A stretch of 35,424 nucleotides of DNA from a virus, in IMG/VR virus record IMGVR_UViG_3300042924_002579, positions 1 to 35,424 of that record, one strand, 5' to 3'. Positions 22,997 to 32,944 of the stretch are shown here, one piece after another. The notes below the pieces were generated by a model. It saw only the letters and a program-made list of their open reading frames with translations. It was not told the origin of the DNA and did no database searches. How positions within the stretch are numbered: the stretch's first letter is position 1; each line of letters opens with the position of its first letter. Made by a program: the position numbers and the translations under genes.

Positions 22997-25900
22997 CTAG
23001 CGAATGTTGAACCCACTATCCGCGAAGGATGCGATCAGGCTCAAGGTCTGACCGCCTGATTCCACGCAGGGATGTTCGATGGCGCTCACGGATACTTGCC
23101 CTTCTTCATCCATCTGCACTTCGGTTACGCGAAACACCCGTTTGCGGGTGATCGTTTGCCCTAGCACGAACAGCCGGCCGGCATACGGTGCCAAGGCTGC
23201 CGCGGTGCCGTTGCTCACCGTCACGCTGTCCACCTGGATCACAGCGCTGCCGGACTGGTAGACCAGCGCCTTCAGGCCGCTGCCGTTCGGCACCTGCCCG
23301 ATCGGGGTGTTGAGCACACCGCCAGCCTCGACCACGCCAGTGGTCACCTGATCCCATTGGTTCTCGCCGATCGCCACGTAGATGTAGCTGCCGGGCTCCA
23401 GCACGCTGTCGGTGGGGAACGTGGAGAAGTCGATCGCGCGGCGGATGTGGCGGCGCTGGTTGCACAGCAGCTTGCCGAACAGGATCGCCTGGCTGCGGTT
23501 GGTGACGTACTGCGAGAGATCGAAGGTCTGCCGCACGGCGTTCGCTTCGGTCGCGTCAGCCCGGCTCACCTCGACGCTGCGGTTGCGCGGAAAGGTGCCG
23601 TCGATCTCAGTGTCGCGGTAGATCACTGACGCGATCAGATCCTGCACGTTGCTGCCGAAGTCGATGAACTCCTCGCGGTAGCTGTCCTCGAGGATGTTGC
23701 CCTGATTGAACAGCGCGGTGATGGTGACCTGGCGGGTGATGTTGCCGGCGTTGTCGCATGGCACGGCAGGCACCAGCGTTTCGCGGCCGCCGACACGGCC
23801 GAGCTCGAGCAGCGAGAACGGCGCCACCTCCGCCCAGAACTGACGCCATGGCGTCTTGTCTGCGATCACGCCATCCATGAAGAGGCCGTTCTGCCGGCAG
23901 AAGCGTTTCGCCAGCGCCAGCGCCTCGAGATCGACGCCGCCGATCTTGGCGAAGCGGCCGATGCCGTTCTGCGGATCGAGGATGGTGTCGAGGAAGATGT
24001 CGGGCGCGTAGCTGCTGGAGCCGTCCGGCTGGCTGGGGTAGGTGCCGTCGTTACGCAGGCGGCGCAGCTTCTTGCCCTCCAGTACGAACACCGACAGCGA
24101 GCGCAGATCCTGAATGCCCTGGCCGCTGTAGGCGTTGAAGCCCATCAGCTGGAGGCCGTTGTAGAGGTTGGGGTAGTTGGAGAAGGCCTCGACGCGCTGC
24201 TCAGTCACAGCGGTGATCGCGAACTCGGGACCACCCTCGAAGCTGAAGCTGGTCTGCGTGTCAGAGCGCACGGAGAACAAGCCCCACTCATCCACCTCTG
24301 ACGGGTTGGCGTTCAGCGGCGGCCGCAGGCCCATTCGGGTGCGGATGGATCCAAGGAAGGTGAACTGCCCACCTGCCGGGCCGGAGATCACCACTGTGTC
24401 GCCGCTGTTCTCGATGTAGGCAAAATCAGCGAGACCGTGCGTGTTCATCTCGGCCGCGGTTTCGGCAATCGGGTCGAATCTGAACTGCCAATTCCCAATG
24501 TTGTCGCCTGCAATGAACTTCAGCGAAATGAAGTTATCAACATCAGCGCCGCGGCGCACCGCAAAGATGTAGGGCAGCCGACTCCACTCCTGCCCGGTGC
24601 GCCGGTAGCGCACCCAGAAGAAGGCAGAGCGCAACTTGGTGCCGTTGTCGCTGTCGCGGTAGTTCTTGACCTTCTCCTCGCCGTACTTCTTGGCGCGGCC
24701 TTGGATCCTTTTGAACACCTTGGCCTTGATCGCGAAATCGACCACGCGGCACTCGGTGATCGTTTCGTAGCCGGCTTCCTCCATCTTCACCAGGCATTTG
24801 GTGTTAAAGAAGTCGTTCCAGCTTTCTGGCTTAGAGAGGTAGTCCTCCAGTTCGGCAATCCGCTGAAGCTTCTGGTTTCGCTGAACGCGCCATGCCGCAT
24901 TACGCTGATCCATGGCAGCTTGGTTGAGGTTGCCGGCATCTGCTGCGAGCTGATAAAGCTCGTTGAGCGTATCCTTTTCGCGGTCAATAATGAACGCGCG
25001 CTCTTGCTTTGCCGTGCGGGGCTGGCTTCTGTTGAAGTCCCAGTCGTAGACCTTGTCTGCCAGTCCGTATCGCTCAATGCGCCGGTCTAGCTTGGCCTGA
25101 GCTATTTTAATCTTCTTGTTGTAGTCAATAATCTGAACCTTCCAAGCGTTGATTTCAGCTGACGTTTTCGTGCGCTCGTTTTTTGGCAATTCAAGCTGAT
25201 CATCAATTTTGTATTGCAGGTCGCGGCGCTTATCTCTCAAGTCATCAAGAGCGTCAGCAGCCCGCCGTACCGGCCCATCAACCGCAATGCTTCCGTTAAG
25301 GATTCCGTCCAGCTCTGCGTCGGTCCATTGCTTGTCAGTCAGCTCAGCGAGCTGCTGCTTTCGTGCCCGCAACTCCTCAAGCCTTGCGTTGGCAGCATCC
25401 GCGAAGCCAGGCTTGAAGATCGGCTCATTGGTAGCAAGAAGCCGATCAAGTTCTTTGATTTCAGCCTGCAGCTGCACGATCTCGCGGCTGGCTTCCTTGC
25501 CGTTCTTCTTGAAATCAAGAGTGTTGTAATCCTCTCGCGGACAGATTCCGGCTTCGATGCACTCCATGGTGACGCGCATGGCGCCATCGTCCAGCTCGAC
25601 GTTCTTAATTGCAGCGGCCACGCGGAACTTGGCGCTGCCCAGCTTGTAGGTGCTGGCTGCATCGATGTAGCTCGAGAGCGTGCGGCGCAGCTCACGCGCA
25701 GCCCGTGCCGTGTCGCTGTCGGTGGACGTGATGCGTCGGAAGATCAGCGTCATGCGCTGGCCCACAGGCACCACCGGACGCTCATCGTTGAGCACGTTCA
25801 GCGGCCAATAGCTCTGAAGCCCGTCGATCTCGACGCCGACCGGGGCATCGCGCTCATCGCCGTCCTCATCGCGGTCGATGTAGTTGACGTTGATCGGGAT

Positions 25901-26617
25901 CGGCGCGAACACGCCGAACCGCGTCATGGTGCTGGGCGAGAACGCCTGGCTGAAGCCATCAGCGTGCTGATCGCCGATCAGTGTCGGACGGTAGGCGTAG
26001 CTGCTGCCGGCCTCGCCCGTGCGGGTTGGGTCCGTCTCATCGCCGCGGATCAGATCGGTGAACACCAGCGGCCGATTGGCGCCGAAGTAGGCCCAGGTCT
26101 TGCCGGCTGCCAGCTGGCGGATAGGTGTCTGGCCGAAGGCAATGCGGCCGGGTCCGATGCGCTGGATGTCGGAGGCACCCACCGCCACCAGCATCTGCAT
26201 GAACTGGCTCGAGCCCTCGCTGTGAACAGCCGACCACACCAGCGAGCTCGCCACGCGCACGCCGCCGGTCGGGTTGTCGTCCACGTTGCAGTAGACGAGG
26301 TTGACCGGGTCGCCGTACTTCGCCAGCTCCTGCTGCGAGTTGAAGCCGAACCGCGGCGCGAACACCTGATCACGGCGCTGCCGCTGGTTCTTCTGCTCTA
26401 TCTCCGGCTTCGGAGCGAGCAGGTAGCTAACAGCCTGCAGGATGATGCCGACCACCGCGAGGATGATCGAAATAGGCTCCGCGCGCAGTTCCTGCAGCTT
26501 CTCCTCACGCGATCGCGTGAAGTCGTGCTGCACCGCCAGAAACTCGAGGTACTCATCCTCGGAGACCTTCAGGATCTGGATGAGCTCGTGCTCGTAGGGC
26601 AGCAGCTTGCGCGTCAT
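22997..26617 (-). CDS. Tail tip / host-specificity protein (gpJ-like)
   Basis: This 1206-residue protein is the central tip attachment protein. Its N-terminal part has a membrane-like helix (AVVGIILQAVSYLLA) followed by phage-tail_3-like repeats (VNLVYCNVDDNPTGGVRVAS, VSSLV). The middle, about residues 365-600, is a long charged coiled-coil insertion (EIKELDRLL, RLEELRARKQQLAEL, DLRDKRRDLQYKI), followed by a short domain up to about 760. The last third is beta-rich and ends DSGFNIR. The insertion and its surroundings are AT-richer than the flanks, which points to acquisition or exchange. It overlaps the NlpC-like gene by 4 nt. Confidence 0.85.
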   Translation of the reverse strand: MTRKLLPYEHELIQILKVSEDEYLEFLAVQHDFTRSREEKLQELRAEPISIILAVVGIILQAVSYLLAPKPEIEQKNQRQRRDQVFAPRFGFNSQQELAKYGDPVNLVYCNVDDNPTGGVRVASSLVWSAVHSEGSSQFMQMLVAVGASDIQRIGPGRIAFGQTPIRQLAAGKTWAYFGANRPLVFTDLIRGDETDPTRTGEAGSSYAYRPTLIGDQHADGFSQAFSPSTMTRFGVFAPIPINVNYIDRDEDGDERDAPVGVEIDGLQSYWPLNVLNDERPVVPVGQRMTLIFRRITSTDSDTARAARELRRTLSSYIDAASTYKLGSAKFRVAAAIKNVELDDGAMRVTMECIEAGICPREDYNTLDFKKNGKEASREIVQLQAEIKELDRLLATNEPIFKPGFADAANARLEELRARKQQLAELTDKQWTDAELDGILNGSIAVDGPVRRAADALDDLRDKRRDLQYKIDDQLELPKNERTKTSAEINAWKVQIIDYNKKIKIAQAKLDRRIERYGLADKVYDWDFNRSQPRTAKQERAFIIDREKDTLNELYQLAADAGNLNQAAMDQRNAAWRVQRNQKLQRIAELEDYLSKPESWNDFFNTKCLVKMEEAGYETITECRVVDFAIKAKVFKRIQGRAKKYGEEKVKNYRDSDNGTKLRSAFFWVRYRRTGQEWSRLPYIFAVRRGADVDNFISLKFIAGDNIGNWQFRFDPIAETAAEMNTHGLADFAYIENSGDTVVISGPAGGQFTFLGSIRTRMGLRPPLNANPSEVDEWGLFSVRSDTQTSFSFEGGPEFAITAVTEQRVEAFSNYPNLYNGLQLMGFNAYSGQGIQDLRSLSVFVLEGKKLRRLRNDGTYPSQPDGSSSYAPDIFLDTILDPQNGIGRFAKIGGVDLEALALAKRFCRQNGLFMDGVIADKTPWRQFWAEVAPFSLLELGRVGGRETLVPAVPCDNAGNITRQVTITALFNQGNILEDSYREEFIDFGSNVQDLIASVIYRDTEIDGTFPRNRSVEVSRADATEANAVRQTFDLSQYVTNRSQAILFGKLLCNQRRHIRRAIDFSTFPTDSVLEPGSYIYVAIGENQWDQVTTGVVEAGGVLNTPIGQVPNGSGLKALVYQSGSAVIQVDSVTVSNGTAAALAPYAGRLFVLGQTITRKRVFRVTEVQMDEEGQVSVSAIEHPCVESGGQTLSLIASFADSGFNIR

Positions 26618-27452: not shown

Positions 27453-27841
27453 CAGTAATCGAGCTCCCCGAGCAGCGTGATCGAGACGCGGCTGCGGCCG
27501 GTGAACACCGACTGCACCTCAGGCGGCCCGGCATATTCCCACCGGATGCTGGTGGGCGCTTGGATGTAGCCGCGCAGGCCGGTGGTCATGCCGACGAACA
27601 GATCAGCCGGCAGCGTGAAGCGATCAAAGCCGCCGCTGGTGCTGTTGTAGTGATCAAGCAGCTGCTCGGTGGTGGCGTCAGGGATGTTGTCGAAACCGAG
27701 CTGCAGCTCGAAGCCGGTGGCGCGGTTGCCGAAGGCACGTTTGACCGTTGCACCCGAGAGCGCCCGGTAGACCTTCACCGGAAAGCTGCCGAGCTTGAAC
27801 GCTCGCGTGGTGGGCTTGATGCCAGGAAACTGTTCAGCCAT
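27452..27841 (-). CDS. Minor tail protein (gpM / DUF2460-like)
   Basis: The product has 129 residues and begins MAEQFPGIKPTTRAFKLGSF, followed by FGNRATGFELQLGFDNIPDATTEQLLDHYN and FDRFTLPADLFVGM. The wording is that of the gpM or distal-tail beta-barrel family. The stop and start of adjacent genes overlap by one base (27841). It should join the tape-measure C-terminus and the tail hub. Confidence 0.72.
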   Translation of the reverse strand: MAEQFPGIKPTTRAFKLGSFPVKVYRALSGATVKRAFGNRATGFELQLGFDNIPDATTEQLLDHYNSTSGGFDRFTLPADLFVGMTTGLRGYIQAPTSIRWEYAGPPEVQSVFTGRSRVSITLLGELDY

Positions 27842-30800
27842 CAGCGCAGCCCCACACGGGTACGGGTGGATGGGCTCTGCTGCAGCTTATCGAGCGTCAT
27901 CGTCATCCCACGCTTTGCACCATCGCGTGATGCAGCGCGCCGGGTTTCGGCCATGGCGGCCTCCAGCTGCTCGCGGCTCACGTACTCGACGCCGCCGATG
28001 TTGGTGGTCTGGAAGCTCATGTTGAGCACCGGGCTGGTGGCGCCCTGCGTCGGGCCGGCACCCATCACCTCGCGCATCTTGTCCTGCCCCTGCAACGCCA
28101 CGGGGATGCGGCGGCCATCGGGCAGCGGCACATAGGCCTCAGGCTTGCTGCCCTCGCCGTAGAGCGCCAGCTGGGGCCGGTTGGCGATGCCGCCCTGGCT
28201 GTAGCGCTTCAGCGGTGCCGGGCCGCTGGAGGTCATCACGCCGCCGTCAGCGAAGCCGCTGATCTTGGGCGCCACGTTGCCCGCTGCATCGGTGCCACCG
28301 CTAAACAAGCCCTTCAGCGCCTTGATCGCCGCCTCGATCACGAAAATCTGGAACAGCTGCTTGGCGATGTCCTTCAACACGCCGCTGGCGATCTCCTTCA
28401 GACTGGCGCCCCAGTCGTCGGTGCCAGACGCCAAGAGATCGAACACCTGTCCCAATCCGTTGCCGATGCTGCTGGCGAATGCGTCAATGGCTCGCCTGCG
28501 CTTCTCTTCCGCTTCTTGCAGAGATTCCAGCGCCAGCTGCTGAGCAAGGATCTCCTCGGTGATGCCCTTTTCGTTCATTTGGCGCGCGATCACCTCGGCG
28601 CGCAGGTCTTTCAGCTTCAGCCTTTGCTGCTCGGTGAGGTTTGTGCGTTGCAGCTCCTTGTCGAGCGCCTTCTCCAGCTCTTGCAAACGTCGCGCCTCGG
28701 AGGCGGCCGTATTCTCCGCATCCACGCGCTGCTGAGCTAGTTCAGGGCTGAGGCCGCTGCGCATCAGTTCGTACATGCGCTGCTGGTCCGCCAACTGCTG
28801 CTTGGCGGCGGTGTTGACCCCATTGAGGTCTTGCTTGTACTCGCCGAACTTCTGCAAATAGGCGTCGAAGAAGTCGTTAAATGCTTGTTGGTCGTTCAAC
28901 GCCTTCTCGGTGCCGATCGCGCCGCTGAGCTGCTGGCCAGCGCGCTGCAGGCCGCCCATCAGGCCCGCACTGTTGAAGCCAGACACGGCAGCACCGGGGC
29001 GGCCCGGCAGCATCGGAGCAGGAGGCGCACCAGCCTGCGCACGCATCGCGCCGGGCAGAAACTGCTTGTAGGCGCCGGATTTGAACACCGACCAAGCGCC
29101 GAAACCCTGGCTCTCGAACACCTTGCGCGCGGCGCTGGCGTTCACCGCTGGATCAAACAGCGCCTCGTTGCTGCCGATGCCGAAGGCACGGCGCCGCTCC
29201 GGTCCCATGCCGCCCAGCATGTTGACCTGCCACAAGCCGTAGCTGTTGTCGCCGGTACGCGGGTTGTTGTTGTGCGCAGCGCTGCGGCCGCCGCTCTCGG
29301 CCATGGCGATCGCCGCCATGATCGACGCATCTCGGTCGTTAAAGCCGGCCGCCAGCGCGAGCGCCTTCAGCTGCCCCACACTCAGCTGGCCGCGGCCCAC
29401 AGAGCCCGGCATCAGCCGGTTCGGCCCCAGTGCACCTGATGCACCACCACCGGCGCCGCCGAGCGTGTCGGCGGCATCCTGAGCGCCCTGGCGGATCTTC
29501 TCGGCGAGCTTCTCTCCTGCGTCCTGCAGGATGTTGCTCACCGAGCGCGCGTAGCCCTCTTGGATCTTGCCGATGCCTTCGGCCACGCTGGTCTTGAACT
29601 CTTCCAGCTGGCGCTGCAGCTGCACTTGGCGATCAGTGGCGTTCTGTTCGTTTTCGATCCGCCGCTCGCTGTAGCGCCTTGAGATCTCGCCGAGCTCACG
29701 CGCAGCATCGATTCCTTCGGTGCTTAGGCCTGCCGCACTCAGCCGCTGGCGCTCAACCTCAAGCGCCGCATCTTGCTCTTGTGCTGCAATCCGGCGGCGC
29801 ACATCGCCGATGCTGCGCTCAAGCTTGAGCCGCTCATCGCCGAGATCACGCTCGAGCTCGGCCGCGCGCTTGATCGTGTCGCGCTGGAAGTCAGCCAGCT
29901 GCTCGGCATTGCGCTGCGCGGCATCCGCCAGCTTGTCTTCCGCGTCCTTGCGGATCTTCAGCTCATCCTTCAGCGCTTCCTCGCGCGCGCGCTGGCGTGC
30001 AGCCTCACGCTCAGCTGCTGCCGCTTCACGGGCTTCGCGCTGGTCGGCGGTAAGGGCCTGCTGTTGGTCGCGCTTTTGATCGGCCGCCAGCAGCTCCTGA
30101 TAGATCTCCTGCTGACGCTTCAGGAAGAACTGGTTCTTGCCGCCAAGGTCGAAGCTGAAGGCTCCAAAGCGTTGATCGGTTTCTCGGGCCGCCTTCTGCT
30201 GTGCTTCAACACGAAGCTGAGCGCGGCGCCCGGCATCACCGTCGCCCGTGATCGAGCCCAGAATGTCCGTTGCATCGCGCAGCACGCCCGTGAAATTGCG
30301 CAGCAGAGCAACGGCTGTAGGGCCGAAGATACGGGACAAGGTTTTGCCCAGCTCTTCGCTCGCAACCTGAAAGTCCTTGATCGCCTGCTGGCCAGTGTTG
30401 AACTGCTGGTTCAGCTTGCCGAGCTGTGTGTCCTGCAGCTTGCCAAGCGCACGAAGCACGATGTCGCTCGTGATCTTGCCTTCTGATCCAAGCTTTTTCA
30501 GTTCGCCGATCGTGACGCCCATCTCGCGCGCGATCGCCTGCGCAGCCAGCGGTGCGTTCTCGCGGATGGATTGCAGGTCTTCACCCATCAGGGTGCCGGA
30601 CGCGAGGCCCTGCTTCAGCTGGATGAACGCGCCCTGCGTCTCTGCAACCGTGGCGCCGCTGTTACGCGCAGCAGCCGAGAAGCCGATGAAGGCCTTCTCA
30701 AGCTCTTGCACCGTGATGCCGGTGGGCCGCAGGCTGGCGTAAAGCGATGCGAAGCTGTCGGCCGCTTCCGTGTTGCTCAGGCGCAGTGTGCTGGCAATGC

Positions 30801-31326
30801 GCGCGACGGACTGTTGAACTTGGTTGTACTCGCCAAACTCGTCAGAGAGAGCCTTGATCCTGACCTGAGCGCTCTCCGCTGCCAGTCCAACACTCGCAAC
30901 GCCCGTCACAGCTTGCTGAGCGCTGCCGAGCGCGCTTGCCGCGATCGAGCCGGCTATGCCACCTGCGAAGCCCGCCAGCGCCGCTCCGCCACGGCTCAGG
31001 CCGCCGCCTTTCTCCGCGGTGCTCTGGAACTTCTTGAGGCGCTGCTCGACAGACTCGAGATCCTTGGTCAGCAGCTTGAACTTCCGGCTGCCAAACTCCG
31101 CCTGATCCCTCAAGGCCCGCAGCGCCACCGCGGTCTTCTGCAGCCCTGCGATGGTGTTGCCTGAGCTGCTGCCCAGCGCCTTGGTGGCCGTGTAGAGGTT
31201 GTCGAGCGAACGCTTGCTCACGTTGCTCTGCTGCGTCAGCCCTTGCAGGCTGCGCTTCAGCTGGTCGAGCCCCTGCCCTTCCAGCTTCGCCGTGAACTTG
31301 ATGGCGGTATCGAGGGACATTGCCAC
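27841..31326 (-). CDS. Tape measure protein with lytic transglycosylase domain
   Basis: This 1161-residue tape measure sets the tail length and leaves the capsid with the DNA. The N-terminal 250 residues hold the usual tape-measure domain (AQVRIKALSDEFGEYNQVQ, GEDLQSIRENAPLAAQAIA). Helical coiled coils fill the middle. A lysozyme/SLT-like domain lies at about residues 650-760 with the catalytic glutamate near 675 in MAESGGRS, then YGLWQVNMLG. A hydrophobic segment is near 980 (LFQIFVIEAAIKALKGLF). The C-terminus has ADGGVMTSSGPAPL. The domain should open the wall at DNA entry. Confidence 0.93.
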   Translation of the reverse strand: MAMSLDTAIKFTAKLEGQGLDQLKRSLQGLTQQSNVSKRSLDNLYTATKALGSSSGNTIAGLQKTAVALRALRDQAEFGSRKFKLLTKDLESVEQRLKKFQSTAEKGGGLSRGGAALAGFAGGIAGSIAASALGSAQQAVTGVASVGLAAESAQVRIKALSDEFGEYNQVQQSVARIASTLRLSNTEAADSFASLYASLRPTGITVQELEKAFIGFSAAARNSGATVAETQGAFIQLKQGLASGTLMGEDLQSIRENAPLAAQAIAREMGVTIGELKKLGSEGKITSDIVLRALGKLQDTQLGKLNQQFNTGQQAIKDFQVASEELGKTLSRIFGPTAVALLRNFTGVLRDATDILGSITGDGDAGRRAQLRVEAQQKAARETDQRFGAFSFDLGGKNQFFLKRQQEIYQELLAADQKRDQQQALTADQREAREAAAAEREAARQRAREEALKDELKIRKDAEDKLADAAQRNAEQLADFQRDTIKRAAELERDLGDERLKLERSIGDVRRRIAAQEQDAALEVERQRLSAAGLSTEGIDAARELGEISRRYSERRIENEQNATDRQVQLQRQLEEFKTSVAEGIGKIQEGYARSVSNILQDAGEKLAEKIRQGAQDAADTLGGAGGGASGALGPNRLMPGSVGRGQLSVGQLKALALAAGFNDRDASIMAAIAMAESGGRSAAHNNNPRTGDNSYGLWQVNMLGGMGPERRRAFGIGSNEALFDPAVNASAARKVFESQGFGAWSVFKSGAYKQFLPGAMRAQAGAPPAPMLPGRPGAAVSGFNSAGLMGGLQRAGQQLSGAIGTEKALNDQQAFNDFFDAYLQKFGEYKQDLNGVNTAAKQQLADQQRMYELMRSGLSPELAQQRVDAENTAASEARRLQELEKALDKELQRTNLTEQQRLKLKDLRAEVIARQMNEKGITEEILAQQLALESLQEAEEKRRRAIDAFASSIGNGLGQVFDLLASGTDDWGASLKEIASGVLKDIAKQLFQIFVIEAAIKALKGLFSGGTDAAGNVAPKISGFADGGVMTSSGPAPLKRYSQGGIANRPQLALYGEGSKPEAYVPLPDGRRIPVALQGQDKMREVMGAGPTQGATSPVLNMSFQTTNIGGVEYVSREQLEAAMAETRRAASRDGAKRGMTMTLDKLQQSPSTRTRVGLR

Positions 31327-31330
31327 CGGC

Positions 31331-31995
31331 TCAGTCCTCCTTCGCCATCGCCGTCAGTGCCGCGCCTTCCATGACCTGCAGATCCTCCAGGAGGGAGCGC
31401 GGCTCCTTCACTTCGTACAGTCTAAAGAGCCACTCCAGAGCTCCGTAGTCGAGCCCGATCGGCCCACCCATTGATGTGCGCCACTGCGTCGAGATGCGCA
31501 GGAACATCACCACTGCATCCCAGTTTTCAGGCCACACCTCGAAATTTTGAGGTGCAGGCTCCTCCATGATCACGCCAAACGCTGCGGCATCGTCATCGAG
31601 CTGCTTGCCTGAATCACCGCCGCCGCCGGCCCAGTGCTCGGCGGCCTCGGTCAGTTTTTTCGTTTGCCCTTCGCCAGGCTCTCAAGCCACGCCGTCACCA
31701 CGGCCGCGGCGACCAGCGGCACGTTCAGCAGATCGGCCTTCGCCTTCTCGCTGAAGCGCACCTCCTCGCCCTTAGCGTCCTGAATGCCTTTCCAGCCGGT
31801 CAGCACCTCGGCGCACAGCTCGTCATCGTTGAGCTCACCGGCCTGAATCAGATCCCAGATCTCGCGGATCCGGGTCTGAGGCAGGCGCTTGAACACTGCA
31901 TCGAAAGATTGTTTCTCGAACCGGCCACCATCGATGGGGAATTCGACAGTGACCGGCCAGCTGTAGCTCTCAGTTTGAGCGAGAACAAAAGCCAT
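31331..31995 (-). CDS. Tail chaperone G-T fusion made by -1 frameshift
   Basis: The downstream frame, 31331-31573 on its own, has only a GTG start but is open without a stop back to the AAAAAAC heptamer at 31654-31660. After a -1 slip the G frame continues as LTEAAEHWAGGGGDSGKQL and then the T part (EEPAPQNFEVWPENWDAVVMF). The fusion would be about 221 residues: 114 from G plus 107. In lambda-like phages the shorter G protein and a rarer G-T fusion coat the tape measure during tail assembly. The order and sizes match that system. Confidence 0.85.
31651..31995 (-). CDS. Tail assembly chaperone G
   Basis: The protein has 114 residues: MAFVLAQTESYSWPVTVEFP, then GRFEKQSFDAVFKRLPQTRI and GELNDDELCAEVLTGWKGI, with a C-terminus WLESLAKGKRKN. 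It is the abundant product of the chaperone pair. The stop TGA follows AAC directly after the slippery heptamer. Typical G proteins have a Tail_TTAP/Phage_TAC fold with 'F..vF.RL', as seen here. It lies between the major tail protein and the tape measure. Confidence 0.85.
   Translation of the reverse strand: MAFVLAQTESYSWPVTVEFPIDGGRFEKQSFDAVFKRLPQTRIREIWDLIQAGELNDDELCAEVLTGWKGIQDAKGEEVRFSEKAKADLLNVPLVAAAVVTAWLESLAKGKRKN
31654..31660 (-). promoter_or_regulatory. Slippery heptamer AAAAAAC for -1 frameshift
   Basis: In the G frame the codons read cgA-AAA-AAC-TGA, so the heptamer is in exact phase for tandem -1 slippage. Eight nucleotides downstream GCCGCC can pair with GGCGGC across a 12-nt loop, giving the downstream stem that usually enhances shifting. 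Coordinates are for the plus strand, which reads GTTTTTT. Confidence 0.85.
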
Positions 31996-32011: not shown

Positions 32012-32944
32012 TCAGGTGAAGGCGAGGCTGAACTCGTTGTTGCCGGCGGTGGTGGGCAGTGCCACGTAGGGCACCTGCAGCATCTGGATGCCGTCTTGGT
32101 CGGTGTAGGACGGCTGAGTCACGTCAACCTGTGACGCTGTGAAGGTTACCCGGTTGCCGGCAGTTGTGCCGTGCAGAAAGGTCAGGTTGCCGGTGGTGCT
32201 GCCGAGCGCCAGCGTGAAGAAGTCCTTCGTGGCGATGGTGGGCGCCTCGATCGACACATCACCAGCAGGCGCGCGGTTGGTGATGATCACCTCCTTGGTG
32301 CAGCCGATCAGCTCGCGGTAGATGATCTCATTGGCGAGGTTGAAGCTCACCGAATTGAGACAGCCGGAATAGGAGAAGAACTGGAAGGCGGACGTGTTGC
32401 CCTCCTTGAAGATCAGCGGAGTCGCCTGGTTGCTGTAGGTGACTGCAGGCTGCGCCGTATCGGTCGGCGCGTTGTAGATGCCGGTCATCTCGAACTGCAG
32501 GGTCGGGATCTGCCCGAGCTCGCAGTTCATCGTCACAGTGCCGCGGGCGCCGGTCAGCTTGTGCTGCACGCCGTCCACGTTGTAGACGATCGTGCAGGAG
32601 CTGAAGCTGGCGCTCACGGGCGCATAGGTGACGCTCGTGCTGGCCACGATGGTGGCCGACATCCCGCAGGCCTTCAGCAGTGCGTCGTAGCGGGGTGCAG
32701 TGCCAGCGGTGCCGGAACCGGCCAGCTCAACCTCGAAGCTGCAGAGCACACGAGAGTTGGCCAGCAGCTGGTCGCTGTTGCCGAGATAGGGGCGGATCAG
32801 GTCGCGGCTGACCACATCCGACTCGAGAGGCGTCACCTCAAGCGAACGCACCAGCACGGCATCAGTGCCGGCCGGTGTCGAATCGGTCCCGTAGGTGGAT
32901 TCAGTCTTCGCCAGGATCAGGCGTTTGCGGCTCAGGAGCGGCAT
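32012..32944 (-). CDS. Major tail (tube) protein
   Basis: This 310-residue protein begins MPLLSRKRLILAKTESTYGT, and features include DAVLVRSLEVTPLESDVVSR, VLCSFEVELAGSGTAGTAPRYD and GARGTVTMNCELGQIPTLQF. These are typical of the tube protein of siphophages ('k.E.tyGtd..p...dAv', 'L.E.el..iptl.f..tG'). The position between the tail terminator and chaperones supports the call. Its first codons overlap the end of the small gene at 32901. Confidence 0.86.
   Translation of the reverse strand: MPLLSRKRLILAKTESTYGTDSTPAGTDAVLVRSLEVTPLESDVVSRDLIRPYLGNSDQLLANSRVLCSFEVELAGSGTAGTAPRYDALLKACGMSATIVASTSVTYAPVSASFSSCTIVYNVDGVQHKLTGARGTVTMNCELGQIPTLQFEMTGIYNAPTDTAQPAVTYSNQATPLIFKEGNTSAFQFFSYSGCLNSVSFNLANEIIYRELIGCTKEVIITNRAPAGDVSIEAPTIATKDFFTLALGSTTGNLTFLHGTTAGNRVTFTASQVDVTQPSYTDQDGIQMLQVPYVALPTTAGNNEFSLAFT

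Follow-up and report, generated by a model that had tools for sequence, protein, structure and literature searches.

The G/GT pair of phage lambda is among the described systems closest to the locus reported here; in systems of this kind the fusion is produced at a low, set ratio, does not appear in virions, and is required for tails. According to the accessible part of PMC5009743, the lambda pair is conserved in long-tailed phages, G and GT are made at a ratio of about 30:1, and the T domain binds the tail subunit. Values of 6% and 7% were measured for a pair of HK97-like chaperone genes (accessible part of PMC3711429). The announcement of the T1-like phage Skenny, in the portion available, names a frameshift analogous to that of lambda G and GT (PMC6763657).

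We analyzed a 35,424-base virus record (IMGVR_UViG_3300042924_002579), referred to below as the window. The gene order on its minus strand is tail tube, G, T (in the -1 frame), and tape measure, with the following features:

32012 to 32944, minus strand: tail tube protein, the upstream neighbor (PF18906 Phage_tube_2, E 6.7e-22)
31651 to 31995, minus strand: G open reading frame, a putative tail assembly chaperone of 114 amino acids in the 0 frame (phrog_569, phrog_313)
31654 to 31660, minus strand: slippery heptamer A_AAA_AAC in X_XXY_YYZ phase (sequence, conservation in relatives)
31651 to 31653, minus strand: TGA stop of G, abutting the heptamer (sequence)
31622 to 31645, minus strand: stem-loop with arms at 31645 to 31639 and 31628 to 31622 (folding, shuffles)
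31331 to 31660, minus strand: T part in the -1 frame, starting KKLTEAAEH (DUF1799 match, dN/dS)
27841 to 31326, minus strand: tape measure protein, the downstream neighbor (PF20155 TMP_3, E 8.7e-36; TIGR02675, E 6.5e-19)

The tape measure protein also contains a lysozyme-like domain at residues 655 to 746 (window 29089 to 29364, minus strand; PF18896, E 2.6e-16).

The observed phase and conservation of the heptamer, the protein-level selection on the -1 frame, the stem, and the gene order lead us to conclude, on sequence grounds, that the G/T junction is almost certainly a programmed -1 ribosomal frameshift of the lambda G/GT type, in the Phage_TAC_4/DUF1799 branch. The 3' end of G reads GGC AAA CGA AAA AAC TGA. 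Read in the -1 frame from the heptamer, the same strand gives KKLTEAAEHWAGGGG, which stays open for 109 residues to a stop at 31331. A preliminary description had placed the heptamer in exact phase, the stop at the very next codon, and an open -1 frame leading into the T part, and we found all three as described. AAAAAAC occurs twice in the window versus 0.34 expected, and the count by itself is weak evidence, since 4 of 100 shuffles have as many. The second copy (25178 to 25184, minus strand) is also in phase, within a 1206-amino-acid reading frame at 22997 to 26617; its -1 frame reaches a stop after nine codons, and this copy was therefore rejected as a site of frameshifting.

The protein families of both parts were assigned by profile searches. 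G matched phrog_569 (E 8.6e-18) and phrog_313, “Tail assembly chaperone” (E 3.4e-5). Against Phage_TAC_4 (PF08748), the window's G scored 13.8 bits (E 0.071), with the Pfam cut-off at 21.1 bits; its homologue in S-CBS1, which is 52.8% identical to it, scored above that cut-off (22.2 versus 21.1 bits). Phage_TAC_4 was matched at E ≤0.1 by 10 of the 18 members of the G alignment (best, 3e-4), and five of eight named-phage G proteins exceeded the cut-off (S-CBS1, HK578, Sin4, Sf12, and Rtp), with no match to this family for the other three (S-LBS1, RcWaterboi, and ZX4290). T residues 37 to 105 matched DUF1799 (PF08809) at E 4.6e-20 and 72.1 bits, compared to a cut-off of 26, and T matched phrog_680 (E 4.7e-31). 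NCBIfam gave no match at E 0.1 for G or T.

An AlphaFold model of G had a mean pLDDT of 78.8. A Foldseek search of this model against the PDB returned no matches at E ≤0.001, and a profile search of PDB sequences with G returned a single chance-like match (E 0.94); given that there is no convincing PDB match, the fold of G neither supports nor contradicts the chaperone reading. Both phrog_569 and phrog_680 carry the label “tail length tape measure protein,” which also appears on T1 gp40/gp39 and on the RefSeq record of S-CBS1 (T match). The best-scoring cultured relatives of the window are Synechococcus phages, and the closest genome contigs by T come from MAGs named Burkholderiales (63% identical) and Rhodobacteraceae (57%).

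Conservation of the heptamer in relatives, on which the preliminary description had made its proposal depend, held up across four sets of loci. We fetched 75 IMG/VR relatives by G with six peptide patterns, 74 of which had a readable G end (L043 was left out as unreadable, its contig ending inside G). AAAAAAC lies directly 5' of the stop in all 74 (TGA in 68, TAG in 4, and TAA in 2), a count to be read with the caveat that one of the six patterns, LAKGKRKN, covers the heptamer; that peptide is absent from relatives L070 to L073, and only T served to fetch the prophage sets. In 69 of these 74 relatives the -1 frame reaches a stop of its own after 104 to 111 codons; in the other 5 it is still open at the contig end. 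Six of ten G-matched phage records were opened (S-CBS1, S-LBS1, S-CBS3, RcWaterboi, vB_PeaS-P1, and vB-Vv-ZX4290; the remaining four are two RefSeq copies and two RcapMu records), and an in-phase heptamer abuts the stop in 6/6, at G identities down to about 30%. The heptamer is GGGAAAC in RcWaterboi and AAAAAAC in the other five.

Prophage and genome-contig loci fetched by T have the in-phase heptamer in 40/40 cases (AAAAAAC in 19 and GGGAAAC in 21), with the stop adjacent in 36. A draw with the Pfam model, matched by 30 of 398 genomes, gave 39 places, from which 30 loci were kept. The heptamer is present in 29 of these 30 (AAAAAAC in 19, GGGAAAC in 9, and AAAAAAG in 1), and the stop is adjacent in 25; the sole locus without it, L167, scores below the family cut-off. 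Among the 29, L141 duplicates the place already represented by L089 in the prophage set. The AAAAAAG locus (L158) has no KL after the heptamer and may not be a true junction; it was counted.

Among more distant DUF1799 phages, 13 of 1093 T-matched records were opened; T1, lambda, P2, and HK97 were added by accession. A heptamer with an adjacent stop was found in 9 of the 13 and also in T1 (10/14), and a classic heptamer is missing from the junctions of NewHawk, Ymer, Sin4, and Sf12 (4/14). In these four junctions (L126, L131, L134, and L136), a Lys codon (AAA or AAG) preceded by A is followed by a stop no more than one codon later; slippage of a single tRNA may operate there. One of the records examined, Campylobacter phage A15b (L132, marked UNVERIFIED), is a Drexlerviridae record with a Campylobacter host and a T1-like G/T junction, and its host label or assembly may be wrong.

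We also ran a composite scan for an in-phase heptamer with an adjacent stop, a 0 frame of at least 80 amino acids, and a -1 frame of at least 60 codons. Across 167 loci (both strands, 1,627,924 bases; the window's own region is represented twice, as L001 and L083, and the repeated place L141 is included), there were 147 matches and never more than one per locus. All 147 have the -1 peptide xKL, with AAAAAAC in 115 and GGGAAAC in 32. Because the heptamer is conserved across relatives, phages, and prophage loci, its origin by chance is excluded.

Runs of A serve in transcriptional realignment, and the six-A run at this junction could in principle yield mRNAs one base shorter or longer, so that the frame would be changed by the polymerase and not by the ribosome. 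The runs cited for this process in the accessible part of PMC3711429 are longer than seven A's, however, whereas the run here is of six only. In addition, 32 of 159 junctions have GGGAAAC, which keeps the ribosomal X_XXY_YYZ logic with no long A run, and the stem downstream also counts against transcriptional slippage. We consider this explanation extremely improbable.

If T is made by frameshifting, the -1 frame should be translated from the heptamer onward. We calculated dN/dS by the Nei-Gojobori method in two clades, clade A (19 sequences, including the window) and clade B (17 sequences). For residues 3 to 14 of the -1 frame, the 12 residues after the slip, dN/dS was 0.23 in clade A and 0.19 in clade B; for residues 3 to 27 it was 0.32 and 0.24, and for the T domain 0.30 and 0.19. 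Values in the other two frames ranged from 0.66 to 1.84. Purifying selection thus acts on the -1 frame right after the heptamer, and in clade A residues 3 to 14 precede the T start candidates found there.

This selection bears on the possibility that T is a separate gene with its own start, through re-initiation or independently, and that its overlap with G is incidental. The -1 reading of the window does hold start candidates 30 and 32 residues in (GTG at 31573 and ATG at 31567), and G and T are separate coding sequences in the phage records opened, except for Sin4, where they are joined, and A15b, which is unannotated. None of the window's first six T start candidates, however, has any of the six Shine-Dalgarno motifs tested in a 16-nt stretch, and no position combining a start and a motif is common to all 45 representatives of the relatives. 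S-LBS1 and S-CBS3 offer only TTG candidates, motif-less, within the first 180 nt. Eight of the 45 representatives do have, about five codons past the G stop, a TTG preceded at 8 nt by GAGG, all of them in clade B, which does not include the window. Given these eight, and a GTG two codons on in others, the dN/dS argument is weaker in clade B, whereas in clade A the purifying selection lies upstream of the T start candidates. A separate start would also leave the heptamer and its phase with no reason to persist in any relative. Because its candidates lack a motif and selection acts upstream of them, we judge a separately started T to be very improbable for the window. The TTG with GAGG of clade B (e.g., L050 and L057) falls inside the stem region and is possibly a second way to start T.

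The stem that follows the heptamer also supports frameshifting. The preliminary description had reported a GCCGCC/GGCGGC stem after 8 nt, and the stem (GCCGCCG/CGGCGGC) indeed begins at the 9th nucleotide past the heptamer. For the 50 nt that come next, the folding energy is -25.8 kcal/mol when counted from the end of the heptamer (z -3.0), and 1 of 200 dinucleotide shuffles folds as well; with synonymous shuffles of the window, 0 of 300 do. We extended the test to the 45 representatives, using the 45 nt after the heptamer and synonymous-codon shuffles that keep the T protein. In 42 of them z was below -1 (mean z, -2.24), and the remaining three (L070, L071, and S-CBS3) have no stem better than the shuffles. 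Mean folding energy is lowest directly after the heptamer, at -20.5 versus -4.9 to -16.6 at other offsets. S-LBS1, RcWaterboi, vB_PeaS-P1, and ZX4290 have different stems at about the same place. Covariation is modest: 17 of the 51 distinct stretches were selected for a single register, and in these both sides change in two of eight pairs. In addition, the arms of the stem also encode conserved residues.

An internal Shine-Dalgarno stimulator was considered and rejected; the raw peak of duplex formation with the anti-Shine-Dalgarno sequence, in a 10-nt stretch about 22 nt before the stop, is no better than in synonymous shuffles. Over 99 junctions the mean z was -0.26, with 4 of the 99 below 0.1.

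From these observations we infer slippage itself, along with its rate and what each product does. Most ribosomes would read G and terminate at TGA, giving the chaperone G. The GC-rich stem 8 nt ahead would slow the ribosome at the Lys-Asn codons AAA AAC, and a minority would slip back one base, re-pair on AAA AAA, and read CTG (Leu) across the stop. The slipped ribosomes would continue through the DUF1799 domain as far as 31331, a total of 107 codons, producing a G-T fusion. By analogy with lambda, G may bind the tape measure protein and the T part may recruit the tail tube protein, in which case the slip rate would set the G:GT ratio needed for tail assembly.

The position of the stop is a further feature of this branch. 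Our junction set comprised 159 junctions, of which 99 were distinct (pairwise identity below 90% over 100 nt). Five loci with no usable X_XXY_YYZ junction were left out (L126, L131, L134, L136, and L167); in L131 the lone candidate, a GGGTTTG that precedes the stop by 9 nt, was removed manually, and L141 was dropped as a duplicate of L089. Junctions were picked by the smallest distance from heptamer to stop, an effect that is small, since only L099 and CS01 offered a second candidate in the lists checked. The stop directly follows the heptamer at 151/159 junctions and at 91/99 distinct ones (TGA in 67, TAA in 17, and TAG in 7). In the -1 frame, the heptamer is followed by CTN at 97 of the 99 distinct junctions, and at 91 of these 97 the CTN overlaps a stop; elsewhere in the same T reading frames, 86 of 860 CTN codons overlap a 0-frame stop. 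Although relatedness inflates the counts, the stop appears to be maintained, since all three stops occur and the ends of G have diverged.

The heptamers at the 159 junctions were AAAAAAC (126), GGGAAAC (32), and AAAAAAG (1), with no others. In the accessible part of PMC5009743, A_AAA_AAC is reported to be much less shift-prone than A_AAA_AAG in E. coli, and the slip rate at the window's site may therefore be low. The AAC end seems to be selected, perhaps for a low rate.

The adjacency of heptamer and stop suggests that termination may compete with the slip. A more specific proposal for the Phage_TAC_4/DUF1799 branch is a late, termination-coupled slip, at the stage when the stop occupies the A site and AAA AAC the E and P sites. 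The adjacency at 91 of 99 distinct junctions, with all three stops and against the 86 of 860 control codons, fits such coupling, as does the greater distance of the stop in lambda and P2 (15 and 18 nt) and, by eye, in HK97 (15 nt). Even the four heptamer-less records still have a Lys codon with a stop no more than one codon on. In a bacterial system, a stop placed after the HIV-1 slippery sequence cut frameshifting and raised RF2 abolished it, effects that the authors read as late slippage (accessible part of PMC4373837). The same source, however, states that Rous sarcoma virus also has a stop at its site and that mutating this stop left efficiency unaffected. The adjacency may simply keep the tail of G short, or be inherited; it is missing at 8 of the 99 distinct junctions, and relatedness swells the number of those that have it. 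Furthermore, with TGA, TAA, and TAG all in use, involvement of a single release factor is ruled out. On balance, we consider the termination-coupled slip rather unlikely. If it were true, a conserved X_XXA_AAC-stop module would let release-factor availability in the infected cell set the G:GT ratio and hence tail assembly. The strongly kept adjacency lends itself to asking at which point of the elongation cycle a -1 slip occurs and whether it has to compete with release factors.

The preliminary description had also predicted that annotation pipelines would list two genes and miss the fusion. This is borne out by the six G-matched phage records, which have separate coding sequences, and does not extend to Sin4, where a joined product is annotated. 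In S-LBS1 (L078, 3001 to 3722), the annotation calls G a cobalamin/Fe3+-siderophore ABC-transporter ATPase and places an antisense reading frame over the junction, and the T coding sequence is only 144 nt long. Neither “chaperone” nor “frameshift” occurs in the accessible part of the S-LBS1 paper, and no mention of a frameshift in the Synechococcus phage relatives was found in the literature searched. A search of titles and the starts of abstracts, covering few subscription journals, found no description of this site or of the stop adjacency. With the frameshift, two separately annotated or mislabeled genes of a phage group become one recoded gene. For the DUF1799 branch, this gives an annotation rule: AAA or GGG followed by AAAC, then an immediate stop, with the -1 peptide (K/G)KL.

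The window can be placed among known systems by several likenesses and differences. Like lambda G/GT, it has the order tail tube, G, T, and tape measure and an in-phase X_XXY_YYZ heptamer near the end of G. It differs from lambda in that the lambda heptamer is GGGAAAG and the G stop lies 15 nt downstream, whereas the stop of the window is adjacent; in P2 the stop lies 18 nt after the heptamer, and HK97 gp13 ends without a classic X_XXY_YYZ nearby, its stop lying, by eye, 15 nt after GAA AAG. E. coli dnaX shares the A-rich heptamer and downstream stem with the window. The window's group, in contrast, has no significant internal Shine-Dalgarno element, and the shifted dnaX product ends early (accessible part of PMC5009743), whereas the shift in the window would lengthen the protein.

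The Synechococcus phages S-CBS1, S-CBS3, and S-LBS1 (gp13/14, gp12/13, and A18/A20) have G proteins 40 to 53% identical to that of the window over the matched stretch and the same AAAAAAC and TGA; they differ in being annotated as separate genes with no frameshift, and S-CBS3 lacks a stem better than shuffles. T1 gp40/gp39 has the same gene order and T family as the window, and gp40 ends in A_AAA_AAC directly before TAA. In Klebsiella phage Sin4, a Phage_TAC_4 and DUF1799 phage whose T is 43.9% identical to that of the window over half its length, a joined G-T coding sequence is already annotated. The window differs from the T1-like group in its strong GC-rich stem, and Sin4 is without a classic heptamer. 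This type of frameshift is thus already known, including in the DUF1799 branch, and judging from its sequence the window is very probably a well-supported further case.
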